Shown here: piece by piece, positions 18,814-23,049 of the stretch
Layout of the letters: each line of letters opens with the position of its first letter
Numbering within the stretch: the stretch's first letter is position 1
Origin: a virus
DNA length: 35,312 bases
Virus record (IMG/VR): IMGVR_UViG_3300032285_001266
Location: 1 to 35,312 of that record
Direction: 5' to 3' (one strand)
The notes under the pieces: model-generated
What the model was told of the DNA's origin: nothing
The model's input: only the letters and a program-made list of their open reading frames with translations
Databases searched by the model: none
Position numbers and translations under genes: made by a program

Positions 18814-19080
18814 TCAGAACTTTTTTTCCCAAGGTCTGCCATACCTATCGATAATCTGTTCTGGCTCATCTATATTATATTTGCGTTCTCTAGGCATACA
18901 ATGTGTACTATGTTTGGGTAATGTACTGTCATTTTTTAATATTTTGTCACATACATTACAACGATACCCACTAAAGTTCCAAATCTTAGATTTTTTATTA
19001 TCTTTATCTGTTATTAGTCTATAAACTAAGTCATAACGTTCTGTGGGTTTGGGATTATTTGATAGAATACTTTTACGCAT
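18814..19080 (-). CDS. Small zinc-finger protein (88 aa)
   Basis: The 88 residues contain a single classical-type zinc finger: C41-x2-C44-x12-H57 and then H60/C61, in YRCNVCDKILKNDSTLPKHS with THC following. The spacing fits C2HC (C-x2-C-x12-H-x3-C) or a tight C2H2 finger, with a conserved-position Leu before the first His. The N-terminus (RKSILSNNPKPTERYDLVYRL) is basic and the C-terminus (IIDRYGRPWEKKF) charged. A DNA- or RNA-binding regulator is possible; HNH endonuclease was considered, but the His-Asn-His core is absent. It lies beside the candidate origin and reads away from it. ATG is preceded by AAAGG with only a few bases' spacing. Confidence 0.6.
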   Translation of the reverse strand: MRKSILSNNPKPTERYDLVYRLITDKDNKKSKIWNFSGYRCNVCDKILKNDSTLPKHSTHCMPRERKYNIDEPEQIIDRYGRPWEKKF

Positions 19081-19343: not shown

Positions 19344-19384
19344 TCACAGAGTGCGGAAGAGTGCGGCCAGTTGCTACTCTGTGA
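19344..19384. repeat. Third iteron cluster and hairpin at the end of the helicase gene
   Basis: TCACAGAGT at 19344-19352 and ACTCTGTGA at 19376-19384 are inverted. Between them lie two AGAGTGCGG units and one TGCTACTCT unit. The stop codon and last codons of the helicase gene (ending at 19374) are made of this repeat sequence. It can also form a hairpin in the helicase mRNA 3' end. Confidence 0.8.
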
Positions 19385-20963
19385 CCACATCATTTGCCAG
19401 TCTTAATCTGTATTTTCGTACAGTTCTTTTGTTACTAGCAACCGTTTCTACACATACCACATCCTTATTTTTAATAAGTTCGGTTAACAATTCTTCTCTT
19501 TGCTCACTGGATAATGCACGTTGAAAGTTTGGGCCCTCTTTTCGTAAATCATTCAATGTACCAATATAATCTTTATTCTTGTCCAGTTTCCACCATGCTA
19601 AAAATAAATTTGCACCCCTAGTTAATATTGGATTAGTGTCTTCAATACCCAAATCTAACTTACTACGCTCATCAATGAAAAAATGCATTAAACTAACTGA
19701 TGCTTTTGCATCATTAATGTTTACAACAGTTCTATGTTCAAATGCCGCTAATGTGGCTGCAATACGCAAACTATGTTCATGTAGTCGATTAGCGAACCCA
19801 CTATATCTTTCTAAGATATTGTTTTCTTTACCATATTTTTTAGTACTGTTATAGAAATTTGCCAAATAAGTTGCAGCATTATCATCTAATGTTATAATGA
19901 TAGGATCAAGTTCAAAATGCTTATCTGGTACCATTCTTGGTCTGATATCTAATATCTCTTTAAGCCTATTGTTAAATCTTTTTAGTTGTCTTCTAAGTTC
20001 ATCTGTTCTATTTCTATTAACAGTATCTACATACATGTCTGGTTTTTCATAGTCATCAATACGACTGATTAAAATACGATGTATAAAACCCTGTTCTTGA
20101 AACATTGAATTATTAAGTACGTCTCTGATAACCATTGCTTGAACCATAAAAAACAAATTAACTCTGCGATTTTTAACAGTTACTTTAGTTTCTTTTGTAT
20201 TTCTTTGTACAGGTGATCCATCCCAAAACTTAGTTAACATACTTGTCATTTCAATTGCACGATTTGCATCATTTTTACCACCTTGAAATGTATGACTACT
20301 GAAAAACTCACCTGCTTCATCACTAATTAAACTTGCATTTGGTTGACTAACTAAAACATCAGTTATACCACCGCTAGTAGTTTTTGATATGATATAATCT
20401 GCTGTTTCAGCAGGCATGGGCTTATCTGGAAATTTTGGATTATTGCCCAATTCTTTTTCTTTTTCATATTCTCTGATTTTACTAGTATAGACTTTGTTTT
20501 CACTAATATATCTTGCATTTTCATTTCTTAACGCTTCATACATAAATTGCTGATAATCTTCAAATGGATCTTTAATTTCGTTCCATAATGAACTTTTACC
20601 GCCACCTGTGTCCAAAATAGTCATAATAAACAATGTTGTGGGTCTAATCTTGTAAACTATACTATCTACATTATACCTGGTATGTGTACAACTGTTAATT
20701 GCACCTAAAAGCGTACAAATTGATAATTCATAAGGAGTATTGTTCATATCCTTCAGTATAATCATTGCATCTTTTATTAATGTTGGTAAATGCTCGCAAA
20801 ATGCAGGAAGTTGATTGTATCTGTTTGTAAAATCTATGTAATTGTTGTCAAAAACACTTAAATTTTGGGGTGTTTTTATTTCATCGTTTTTGATGTGTTT
20901 TGCTGGAATGTTAGATGCATGTATCTTTCCGCCTATTTTATTCATTAAATCTATGTTATTCAT
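19374..20963 (-). CDS. DUF3987-type replicative helicase/ATPase (529 aa)
   Basis: The 529 residues contain a P-loop LDTGGGKSS (117-125), a Walker B-like NASLISDEAGEF (209-220) and a downstream AIEMTSMLTKFWDGSPVQRNTK segment, typical of DUF3987 proteins, which sit beside or fused to AEP primases in phages and plasmids and serve as replicative helicases. A long charged helix (about 145-175) lies between the two nucleotide motifs. The C-terminus has a winged-helix-like region (IGTLNDLRKEGPNFQRALSSEQREELLTELI). The gene starts 2 bases after the primase gene with AAGGA upstream. Its last codons lie in the iteron array. It would unwind DNA at the fork, using ATP. Confidence 0.8.
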   Translation of the reverse strand: MNNIDLMNKIGGKIHASNIPAKHIKNDEIKTPQNLSVFDNNYIDFTNRYNQLPAFCEHLPTLIKDAMIILKDMNNTPYELSICTLLGAINSCTHTRYNVDSIVYKIRPTTLFIMTILDTGGGKSSLWNEIKDPFEDYQQFMYEALRNENARYISENKVYTSKIREYEKEKELGNNPKFPDKPMPAETADYIISKTTSGGITDVLVSQPNASLISDEAGEFFSSHTFQGGKNDANRAIEMTSMLTKFWDGSPVQRNTKETKVTVKNRRVNLFFMVQAMVIRDVLNNSMFQEQGFIHRILISRIDDYEKPDMYVDTVNRNRTDELRRQLKRFNNRLKEILDIRPRMVPDKHFELDPIIITLDDNAATYLANFYNSTKKYGKENNILERYSGFANRLHEHSLRIAATLAAFEHRTVVNINDAKASVSLMHFFIDERSKLDLGIEDTNPILTRGANLFLAWWKLDKNKDYIGTLNDLRKEGPNFQRALSSEQREELLTELIKNKDVVCVETVASNKRTVRKYRLRLANDVVTE

Positions 20964-20964
20964 A

Positions 20965-21948
20965 TTAATATATCCTTATTTTCTTGTTTAGTTCTTTAAT
21001 TACTTGATATGGTTCTAGTAAAATCTCAATGTTGTTTCGGGCACGAAATTCTAGTTCCATTTGTCGTAACTCATCTTTATCAAAATTACTTAATTTAATA
21101 AGTGTAGCAATTCCTGGACTTCTAGAACTATCCCAACTATCAAATGCATGTAATTCTTTTTTTGTTTTTGATGGCCAATGTTGCAACATTAGATTTTTTG
21201 CATTATTGACACCTACAGTATGACATGTTGCCCATGCTATACTTAACCAATCATCATATTGTCCATGCAAATTACCAACATTATTAGCGATTTTGGATAA
21301 TAATTGACTTACATAAATTTCATCATATTGAGTATCATATTGTCTTTGATAATCTTGTGTTTTGACTTTTTCATTGTCTATTCTATCTATCATGTTAACT
21401 AATTCATCAGTAATAAGTTTGGGTAATACTTTGTCTGTGTATTCTTTAATTACACAATTAGGAACGCCGTAATATATACGGCTTGCATCTTTACAACTTT
21501 TATCACCCGATTCATATATTTCTAACAATCCCCGAATAATTTTACGCATTCGTAACGCATCATATTCTGGTTCTTCTAATACAAACATAATACGAAATCT
21601 ATGTGCATCATCAGTATGTCTGGCTGTAGTATAAAATCCTGCGCCATATTCATTGTAAAAATCATTTTCAAACAATTCTTGTATGGTCATACCATCATCA
21701 ATATCAACCATACATAATTGTCTACTTATATAATTAGATTCTTCCCTATGATTTGAACTCAGTTCACAACTTGTTGCTAATCCATCTATTGTAATTGCAT
21801 CAAATGCTTCTTGCCAGGTACATTCTATATTTTCCCAATCATATCCTAAATTTATAATAGTTCCTTTATAAATGTATAATGGTGGTTTATCTTTGCGTTC
21901 TAACCTGTCTGGTTTACCTCTAAATTTAGGATGTATACTTAATTTCAT
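20965..21948 (-). CDS. AEP-type primase/PrimPol with PriCT-2 domain (327 aa)
   Basis: The N-terminal half matches small archaeo-eukaryotic primases: MVDIDDG (80-86) supplies the metal-binding D-x-D, GFYTTARHTDDAHRFRIMFV (104-123) the central His motif, and CKDASRIYYG (152-161) the third motif. Residues about 205-300 (LLSKIANNVGNLHGQYDDWLSIAWATCHTVG ... FDSWDSS ... GIATLIKLS) match PriCT-2, the domain usual at the C-terminus of such primases. It would make primers for replication with the downstream DUF3987 ATPase. The ATG overlaps the stop of the 194-residue gene (ATGA). No DNA polymerase lies in the window, so the phage may rely on the host enzyme. Confidence 0.75.
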   Translation of the reverse strand: MKLSIHPKFRGKPDRLERKDKPPLYIYKGTIINLGYDWENIECTWQEAFDAITIDGLATSCELSSNHREESNYISRQLCMVDIDDGMTIQELFENDFYNEYGAGFYTTARHTDDAHRFRIMFVLEEPEYDALRMRKIIRGLLEIYESGDKSCKDASRIYYGVPNCVIKEYTDKVLPKLITDELVNMIDRIDNEKVKTQDYQRQYDTQYDEIYVSQLLSKIANNVGNLHGQYDDWLSIAWATCHTVGVNNAKNLMLQHWPSKTKKELHAFDSWDSSRSPGIATLIKLSNFDKDELRQMELEFRARNNIEILLEPYQVIKELNKKIRIY

Positions 21949-22529
21949 TGGTATTTTCTCTTTGCGTAATCCTTAAATGCAGAAAATACTTCTGGCTTCA
22001 TGGTTCTTTTTGCGGATTGTATCATATCTATAGCAAACAATTGTTGAAGGTCTATATGTTTACCCAATTTATAAAATGCATCTTTATCATCTTCGTCCCA
22101 AGCATACCATTCATCATTGTATAATAATAAATCTCCCACAACCTGAGGATGTTTGTCAAATAATATTTCCAATTTTTCATCACCCATATTACAATAATAT
22201 TTTGATAAAATCTTTCCTATATCCATATCTACTATGTATGAAACATCCGCATTAAAAAACTTTTGCGTACTATCAACATGTTTATTAGTTTTGTTATCAT
22301 AATTCCACCAATGCCCATGCACAACAGTAGAATTATTTTCTGTTTCATGCACTACCCAACCAGTGACAAAATCATATCTTTTTTCATTACTAAAAACAAG
22401 ATTATATGAATTTTGTTTACATTTTCCTAATTCAGCAAATGTGGTTTCTATTGGAACCACATTAACATATTTTGATAATGGTCTTGCTTGTAATAATTTA
22501 CGAACAGCCCTTTTCATTTCTTTACTCAT
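21945..22529 (-). CDS. Putative Cys-His-Asp (papain/transglutaminase-like) protein (194 aa)
   Basis: The N-terminal part shows an ordered set of residues typical of transglutaminase- or NlpC-like cysteine enzymes: GKCKQNSYNLV with C37 and N40, VVHGHWWNYD with H71/H73, and HVDST with D86. Between them lies YDFVTGWVV, like the strand before the His in this fold. The C-terminal ~70 residues are acidic then basic (EWYAWDEDDKDAFYKLGK ... KPEVFSAFKDYAKRKYQ). Phage proteins with C..NA/N ... H.W.N ... D.T are known to me from several phages but without a proven substrate. It is embedded in the replication operon, overlapping both neighbours by ATGA, so a role in early takeover (protein processing or deamidation) is possible. 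Confidence 0.6.
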   Translation of the reverse strand: MSKEMKRAVRKLLQARPLSKYVNVVPIETTFAELGKCKQNSYNLVFSNEKRYDFVTGWVVHETENNSTVVHGHWWNYDNKTNKHVDSTQKFFNADVSYIVDMDIGKILSKYYCNMGDEKLEILFDKHPQVVGDLLLYNDEWYAWDEDDKDAFYKLGKHIDLQQLFAIDMIQSAKRTMKPEVFSAFKDYAKRKYQ

Positions 22530-22717
22530 TTCTTATCACCTTTCAATTTATAAATCAATTCCAATAAATCTTCTTCAATTTCAGCAACACGTTCTTCCCA
22601 CCACAAGTACATCTCACGATCACCTATACTTCTATAGTGAGTACAATTGCCAATAGCATTTTCTAAATTCGTGTATATATCATATGCACGATCCACATTG
22701 TTGTCTTCGTTTGTCAT
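22526..22717 (-). CDS. Small acidic helical protein, first gene of the replication operon (63 aa)
   Basis: The 63-residue protein (MTNEDNNVDRAYDIYTNLEN..., then WWEERVAEIEEDLLELIYKLK) is mostly helical and acidic with a heptad-like C-terminal half suggesting a coiled coil. I do not recognise it. AAAGGAG lies 6 nt before the ATG, a strong Shine-Dalgarno, but this site can be base-paired with CTCCT in the leader (see 22723-22818). Its stop overlaps the ATG of the next gene (ATGA), so control of this start would influence the whole primase-helicase operon. Confidence 0.65.
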   Translation of the reverse strand: MTNEDNNVDRAYDIYTNLENAIGNCTHYRSIGDREMYLWWEERVAEIEEDLLELIYKLKGDKK

Positions 22718-22722
22718 TTTTT

Positions 22723-22818
22723 CTCCTTTAAAAATGTTTCCTAGTACATGTCAATCTCTTGAACCTGAGATGAAGCCCCAGGGTTCAAGCTGGGGACTTC
22801 GTTTGACATTTTTAGGAG
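22723..22818 (-). promoter_or_regulatory. Structured leader RNA with kissing loops and Shine-Dalgarno sequestration
   Basis: Minus-strand RNA. P0: CUCCUAAAAAU (22818-22808) pairs with AUUUUU-AA-AGGAG (22735-22723), covering the ribosome binding site of the 63-residue gene. P1: AUGUCAA (22809-22803) with UUGACAU (22754-22748). P2: GAAG-U-CCCCAG with CUGGGG-CUUC (22800-22772), loop CUUGAACC. P3: AUCUC with GAGAU (22771-22754), loop AGGUUCAA. The two 8-nt loops are complementary over 7 bases, so they can kiss. P0 and P1 share two bases and P1 and P3 one, so the ends must compete or stack. A three-way junction with a loop-loop contact recalls purine riboswitches in shape only; their conserved junction bases are missing. 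Ligand, protein or peptide control is unknown. Confidence 0.55.
22741..22809 (-). CDS. Possible 22-aa leader peptide inside the structured leader
   Basis: ATG at 22809 opens a 22-codon frame (MSNEVPSLNPGASS...) ending in TAG. The first 19 bases around this start (AAAAATGTCAAACGAAGTC) match the start of the downstream gene (AAAAATGACAAACGAAGAC) at 17 positions, so one may be a duplicate of the other. There is no Shine-Dalgarno, CTCCT standing in its place. It coincides fully with the RNA structure, so either the peptide or the structure may be the selected feature. Confidence 0.2.
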   Translation of the reverse strand: MSNEVPSLNPGASSQVQEIDMY

Positions 22819-22841
22819 TTGTCACACAGTTAAGTGCTGTG

Positions 22842-22849
22842 TATTTATC
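22842..22849 (-). promoter_or_regulatory. T4-late-like promoter element of the replication operon
   Basis: Minus strand GATAAATA-CACAG in a non-coding gap. A short inverted repeat (ACACAG/CTGTGT, 22824-22842) begins at the end of the element and could fold at the 5' end of the transcript or bind a regulator. Confidence 0.5.
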
Positions 22850-22890
22850 ATTATATAGAAATATATTGAAATAAGCTAGTGTTTTGGTAT

Positions 22891-22959
22891 AAAAAGATTG
22901 CTAGAATGACCACTTTAGGGAATTAACAAGAGACTAACAGGACGTGACCATTCTAGCAA
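22891..22959 (-). terminator. Terminator-like hairpin with U-tract at the end of the candidate RNA
   Basis: The 16-bp stem (22898-22913 with 22944-22959) is followed at once by TCTTTTTAT. The 30-nt loop is long for an intrinsic terminator, so termination may be partial or the stem may serve another purpose. Confidence 0.45.
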
Positions 22960-23049
22960 AAACACAAAATATATTAAGGATGTACAGAGAACAATCATCG
23001 GAAATGTGTAAATGGCATTAAACACGTATATAAAAACCATCCTCTGTAC
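22891..23049 (-). ncRNA. Candidate phage small RNA (~159 nt)
   Basis: No coding frame is supported here. The predicted start (23049, six bases after GATAAATA at 23055-23062) is the first base of GUACAGAG, which pairs with CUCUGUAC at 22989-22982. Further on, UUGCUAGAAUGGUCAC (22959-22944) pairs with GUGGUCAUUCUAGCAA (22913-22898), 16 pairs including two adjacent G-U pairs, with a 30-nt loop, followed by UCUUUUUAU. The G-U pairs would be A-C mismatches on the plus strand, which supports minus-strand transcription. It could instead be a long leader for the replication operon. Confidence 0.5.

Follow-up and report, generated by a model that had tools for sequence, protein, structure and literature searches.

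A conserved, probably riboswitch-like leader RNA at the head of replication operons in uncultured phages

What is the structured stretch that stands immediately 5' of the first replication gene in an uncultured phage, and how might it act on the genes below it? The window, i.e., the whole stretch of DNA analysed here, is a record of 35,312 bases from an uncultured phage that its terminase and tail proteins place near uncultured Caudoviricetes (best match MW202484, Manatee Spring). The stretch in question is read from the minus strand (window 22842-22715). The primase/helicase operon below it encodes a 63-aa protein, a 194-aa protein, a primase-like protein and a DUF3987 helicase. Upstream of the leader, a 73-aa gene (MIDF) closes the late genes; its product is weakly similar to Rz-like spanins. 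The annotated genes of the operon are as follows.

22526-22717, minus strand: 63-aa first gene of the operon, of a family with the conserved LENAIG motif (alignment of relatives); start codon at 22717
20965-21948, minus strand: primase-like protein, 327 aa (phrog_2135, DNA primase, 2.8e-9)
19374-20963, minus strand: DUF3987 replicative helicase/primase, 529 aa (PF13148, 4e-44; phrog_2373, DNA helicase, 1.3e-31)

The 63-aa protein has no match in Pfam or PHROGs. It belongs to a small undescribed family with few invariant residues (L, NA, D, W, I), which sits first or second in these early operons.

A sequence-only reading of the window had described three stems (P1, P2 and P3) with two loops complementary over 7 bases, enclosed by an outer pairing over the Shine-Dalgarno (SD) sequence of the first replication gene. 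All of these stems and loops are present on the minus strand, and homologues confirm them. The parts of the leader, listed from 5' to 3' of the RNA with the evidence for each, are the following.

22841-22847, minus strand: TAAATAC, promoter-like -10 block (TAAATA found 33-55 nt 5' of P1 in 10/10 members)
22820-22842, minus strand: 5' hairpin ACACAG/CUGUGU, then UGACA (sequences and folds of members)
22809-22818, minus strand: anti-SD strand CUCCUAAAAA (coevolves with the far SD strand, P=5e-5; five double-change pairs)
22803-22808, minus strand: P1 5' strand UGUCAA (P1 100% paired and nearly invariant; UGU also used by the SD helix)
22801-22802, minus strand: junction J1/2, AC (near-invariant A-A-A-C before GAAG in the alignment)
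22797-22800, minus strand: 5' strand of the P2 base, GAAG (compensatory GUAG/CUAC in L043)
22796, minus strand: conserved single-nucleotide bulge U, C in L052 (alignment)
22790-22795, minus strand: upper P2 5' strand CCCCAG (pair 31-42 seen as GC, AU, UA and CG)
22782-22789, minus strand: loop L2 CUUGAACC, first kissing partner (permutation test and covariation)
22772-22781, minus strand: P2 3' strand CUGGGGCUUC (covariation)
22771, minus strand: junction J2/3, A, invariant (alignment)
22767-22770, minus strand: P3 5' strand UCUC (double changes in all four pairs)
22759-22766, minus strand: loop L3 AGGUUCAA, second kissing partner (permutation test and covariation)
22755-22758, minus strand: P3 3' strand GAGA (covariation)
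22749-22754, minus strand: P1 3' strand UUGACA (covariation analysis of the aptamer)
22739-22743, minus strand: near strand UAGGA, which may pair with UCCUA of the anti-SD strand once the aptamer has formed (energy models)
22723-22737, minus strand: far strand ACAUUUUUAAAGGAG, containing the SD sequence AGGAG (permutation test and SD-helix covariation)

The 5' hairpin ends in UGUGACA and the anti-SD strand follows, after which the RNA reads UGUCAA AC GAAG U CCCCAG CUUGAACC CUGGGG CUUC A UCUC AGGUUCAA GAGA UUGACA. Then UGUACUAGGAA leads to the far strand ACAUUUUUAAAGGAG, and the start codon follows. L2 and L3 are complementary over 7 nt. The SD helix joins CUCCUAAAAA(UGU) to (ACA)UUUUU-AA-AGGAG across the SD. 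Among the homologues described below, P2 has 10-11 bp with its bulge and P3 has 4-6 bp. The junction segments are short: J1/2 has about 2 nt, J2/3 about 1 nt and J3/1 0-3 nt, the last being missing or variable (GCG in L043, A in L052). The most conserved nucleotides surround the junction (AAAC, the bulge U, CUUCAUCU and AGAUUGACA), and such conservation in the sequence suggests a candidate binding site there.

The window sequence folds more stably than its dinucleotide shuffles, with z = -4.4 for 161 nt and z = -3.8 for 111 nt (0 of 200 shuffles were as good). Complementarity over 7 nt arose between shuffled versions of L2 and L3 in 0.085% of trials. A lax geometric descriptor of the architecture gave 542 matches over 1.27 Mb versus about 288 in shuffled DNA. 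As this descriptor yields many chance lookalikes in a single sequence, the case for the RNA rests on homologues; a homologue search by architecture only was dropped as too unspecific.

Nine further distinct homologues were found by pattern and covariance searches, all in contigs of uncultured phages in IMG/VR. The set thus has ten distinct members: the window, L002, L007, L018, L022, L024, L027, L032, L043 and L052. They were reached through pattern scans, through a query with the small protein encoded downstream, and by running the covariance model R1 over 80 loci that had been fetched with a tail protein. L002, the one related contig that a first protein search found, has the same leader core and different kissing loops, UUUAGCGG/ACCGCUAA versus CUUGAACC/AGGUUCAA in the window, which amounts to several compensatory changes. 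The whole records of 50 structural relatives contain the leader RNA only where it was already known. A scan with a pattern of the 3' half gave no further member, and the search for homologues via the 194-aa protein gave none. Nor did a search for diverged SD-sequestering leaders in the 80 related phage loci give a new member among the best 60 candidates, judged by eye. A DNA-similarity search of an annotated phage collection returned no match to the window leader and, for the L018 leader, only a 26-nt chance match. In 84,980 bacterial and archaeal genomes, the pattern TTGTCAAACGAAGT...CTTCATC had only two chance matches inside other sequence; this narrow pattern fits only 4/10 members (L018, L022, L024 and L027), so the leader RNA may still occur in cells. 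The leader RNA has so far been found only in phage contigs.

The genes downstream of the leader change among its carriers. The replication enzymes of the RNA-bearing members include Prim-Pol or another primase-like type and DUF3987 or DUF5906. The LENAIG protein is the second gene in L043. It is absent from the whole L052 record (36,453 bases), where the leader RNA is present and precedes an unrelated 99-aa gene. A small zinc-finger-like protein (CxxC...HxxxC), encoded at window 18814-19080, occurs in all RNA-bearing loci that extend as far as its gene; of 75 other loci, only 3 have it.

A comparison across related phages, of the kind proposed as a check on the initial reading, showed that P2, P3 and the kissing loops covary. 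In the ten members, 98.9% of the aptamer cells (P1, P2, P3 and the loop-loop helix) are paired. Compensatory double changes occur in 13 of the 28 aptamer pairs, six of the 13 being in the kissing helix. The SD helix has 98.4% of its cells paired and five double-change pairs, including a replacement of C-G by U-A between the anti-SD strand and the SD. These counts of paired cells and double changes rest on a hand alignment padded with N (A8), which leans towards structure, and ten members are few. The covariation score was 0.356, versus 0.104 for shuffled and at most 0.066 for slid controls. P1 lacks covariation support of its own because it is nearly invariant; a G-U pair in P1 of L043 fits the minus strand only.

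Permutation of partners between members requires no column alignment, although the segment bounds were cut by hand and kinship among members was ignored, as it was in the counts above. By this test, each L2 matched its own L3 with 66 summed positions in Watson-Crick runs, versus 39 for permuted partners (P=5e-5). The pairing of anti-SD and far SD strands summed to -89.8 kcal/mol versus -58.0 kcal/mol for permuted partners (P=5e-5). Thus the outer pairing over the SD of the first replication gene is not only present in the window, as first described, but also coevolves across the homologues. Coevolution of the near strand with the anti-SD strand was not significant (P=0.11). Changes counted on the MIDF protein tree numbered at least six for the kissing class, five for one P2 pair and four for one SD-helix pair; this tree is short and mostly weakly supported, and its history may differ from that of the leader.

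How could the two structures be connected? In all ten members the far strand starts with ACA, which is complementary to UGU of the P1 5' strand. This UGU is thus claimed by both the aptamer P1 and the SD helix, which compete for it. This three-bp extension of the SD helix into P1 (ACA with UGU, 10/10 members), missed in the initial reading, is, judging from the sequences, the real switch. The computed energies of the two folds are 0-2.3 kcal/mol apart in 10/10 members (with the kissing helix left out), and the minimum-energy fold lacks P1 in several of them. In single-sequence folds, the SD is open in the window, L027 and L032 and closed in L018, L043 and L052. The leader combines a conserved aptamer-like domain with a mutually exclusive SD-sequestering helix, as translational riboswitches do, and its predicted anatomy is that of a translational switch.

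We propose the following mechanism. A leader RNA of about 125 nt, transcribed from its own promoter, would set the translation of the replication operon through two mutually exclusive folds that interconvert by strand exchange. In the ON fold, P1 would close the P1/P2/P3 three-way junction, locked by the L2-L3 kissing helix of 6-7 bp; the SD would then be exposed, and the anti-SD strand (U/C)UCCU either unpaired or loosely bound to the near strand (U)AGGA. In the OFF fold, the far strand ACA-(AU-rich)-AGGA(G/A) would capture UGU of P1 together with the anti-SD strand, so that P1 opens and the SD is buried. Binding of a ligand or protein to the junction would stabilise it and so move the RNA to ON. 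We consider it likely that a two-fold leader RNA controls translation of the replication operon. That the balance is regulated, that binding means ON, and what kind of trigger is involved are all things we infer.

Other pairings have been considered for the P1 strands. Every homologue has a hairpin at the site of the 5' hairpin, with UGAC or GACA (GACA in L018) in its loop or 3' flank. This UGAC/GACA is complementary to part of the P1 5' strand and might pair with it as a third possible competitor. In the window, the P1 3' strand UUGACAU can also pair, with one mismatch, with AUGACAA at the start of the 63-aa gene, and an alternative fold had been suggested on this basis. It is not conserved: the start regions of homologues read AUGACUAAAG, AUGAGUAAAG, AUGAACAAAG and AUGCAUUC. 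The suggestion that the RNA senses translation of a small internal frame finds no support either, as the AUG in P1 exists in only 4/10 members (the window, L002, L007 and L032). The internal frame ends at different points among members or has no end. An attenuator based on an upstream frame or leader peptide was rejected: there is no conserved small frame, frame lengths differ, and there are indels in the core.

The TAAATA block lies in the same place in 10/10 members and reads TAAATAC in nine of them. A generic sigma-70 scan gives no call at this block. TAAATAC may nevertheless act as a promoter, with the RNA starting just downstream. A motif of the type CCAAAAA...GCTTA occurs about 45 nt further upstream (window 22870-22885) in the window, L007, L018 and L052. 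From these sequences, the block and the upstream motif together are likely to form a phage early promoter that departs from the plain sigma-70 consensus.

Is the leader a known RNA? Rfam release 15 (4227 models) gave no match above the gathering cut-off in the window and seven homologous loci. The window scored 17.1 bits for freshwater-2, 16.8 for preQ1-II and 13.8 for sar, which share a cis-regulatory or phage context with the leader; these scores are at chance level (gathering cut-offs 49.9, 47 and 43). The purine riboswitch model had no match at the gathering cut-off or at E<=10 in the window, L018, L052 and L032. Purine riboswitches (RF00167 and relatives) share with the leader a three-way junction, a P2-P3 loop-loop contact and a P1 that competes within the expression platform. 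However, their loops carry invariant motifs, whereas the leader loops are variable and joined by 6-7 Watson-Crick pairs. The junction lengths given above, the 10-11 bp of P2 with its bulge and the 4-6 bp of P3 also set the leader apart. The purine junction consensus has no counterpart in the leader, and the resemblance is architectural only. A purine riboswitch was thus rejected: the junction nucleotides, including the specificity pyrimidine of J3/1, are missing, and J2/3 is a single A. The initial reading had excluded this class as well, and the absence of both an Rfam match and the junction consensus bears it out.

In the lysine riboswitch, a 6-bp loop-loop helix between L2 and L3 organises the junction, and the kissing helix of the leader resembles this complex. 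In contrast to the leader, the lysine riboswitch has a five-way junction and a much larger conserved core; the leader had no lysine match in the Rfam scan. The operators of T4 gp32, gp43 and RegA also place structure over the SD of phage replication genes. They are simpler, being hairpins, pseudoknots or sites without structure to which a phage protein binds. The leader differs from them in being conserved while the downstream genes change. Phage RNA candidates have reportedly been catalogued on a large scale by Fremin et al. (2023), where a bare listing of the leader is possible; no paper on it was found. Covariation, the conserved position before replication operons, and the lack of an Rfam match or a paper strongly support the earlier proposal that this is an undescribed cis-regulatory RNA whose pairing can hide the ribosome binding site. 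Most likely, the leader is a new cis-regulatory RNA family, riboswitch-like in character.

What the RNA senses can be read in several ways. The first is a small-molecule riboswitch of a new class, the junction binding a host metabolite (e.g. a nucleotide or a cofactor reporting cell state) and thereby licensing replication; we put this slightly below even. A junction, a distal loop-loop contact and an overlapping expression platform are known riboswitch architecture, the two folds are energetically balanced, and the RNA is independent of the identity of the downstream gene. Yet the junction is small, with about 3-4 unpaired nucleotides and the bulge. No riboswitch family match and, by the narrow genome pattern, no cellular homologue were found, so gene context offers no clue to the ligand.

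Alternatively, a phage or host protein could bind the three-way junction and set operon translation, the two folds being its bound and unbound states. T4 replication proteins act in this way on their own mRNAs (autogenous control). The leader heads a replication operon. The helices also show strong sequence conservation (GAAG/CUUC, AUCU/AGA). The zinc-finger-like protein, which accompanies the RNA wherever the locus extends to its position, is a possible trans-acting partner, but it is also encoded in three RNA-negative loci. No operon protein is known to be common to all members, as the LENAIG protein is missing in L052 and primase and helicase types vary. A private autogenous operator of the 63-aa protein was rejected on the evidence of the L052 record and the second position of the gene in L043. 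Translational autocontrol is classical for phage replication genes; for T4 there is a review (PMC3014915). We regard a protein operator as plausible if rather doubtful. Since the RNA persists when the genes downstream of it change, we find a small molecule somewhat likelier than a protein.

A device that needs no ligand, either an RNA thermometer or a co-transcriptional (kinetic) delay that keeps the SD accessible for a fixed period once the RNA has been made, seems unlikely. The SD helix is AU-rich, the folds are balanced, and the P1 5' strand has three possible partners (UGAC of the 5' hairpin, the P1 3' strand and the far ACA), which would suit sequential exchange. Such a device leaves unexplained the upkeep of a three-way junction and a 6-7 bp kissing helix by repeated compensatory changes. 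A DNA-level element (an inverted TGTCAA/TTGACA operator or a replication origin) with an incidental RNA fold is highly improbable: TTGACA and its inverse resemble promoter or operator half-sites and hairpins are common at origins, but loop-loop and anti-SD/SD covariation has no evident meaning in duplex DNA, and the distance between TTGACA and any -10 varies among members.

Two further elements lie near the leader. A second conserved structured element (window 22982-23049, minus strand) lies immediately after the 73-aa MIDF gene; six different phages have it there, namely L018, L024, L027/L041, L043 and L052 in addition to the window. It is a long hairpin whose inner loop has an invariant AUGCCAU, followed by a UUCC-type stretch (not in L052), and it has no Rfam match. 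On the opposite strand, several of these elements carry an SD, AUGGCA and a very short frame (MALSFADTL*, MAYQLIN*, MALSSYKN*). Next to this element, another long hairpin (window 22898-22959, minus strand) has a 15-bp stem and a loop of about 30 nt; its homologues contain in the loop AUUCCUA, which is the anti-SD sequence of the leader. The two hairpins fold together at z = -4.4. They separate the late from the early operons; in L024, L027, L043 and L052 these operons converge. They are possibly bidirectional terminators or small RNAs.

To our knowledge, only a few riboswitches have been validated in lytic phages, and the hosts share most of these. The leader is compact and stands at the gate of DNA replication; its kissing-loop tertiary contact is supported by compensatory evolution, and the RNA probably decides when the replication machinery is produced. 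The overlap of P1 with the SD helix makes the switching hypothesis directly testable. Were a protein its partner, the RNA would lead to a phage regulator not known so far. A metabolite ligand would instead mean that the RNA contains a new aptamer and that phages sense the state of the host before committing to replication. A bolder reading, which we hold to be less likely than not, is a new riboswitch class by which lytic phages would gauge a metabolite of the host (or its nucleotide pool) and license the replication operon for translation, and which they would have kept through the exchange of replication genes.
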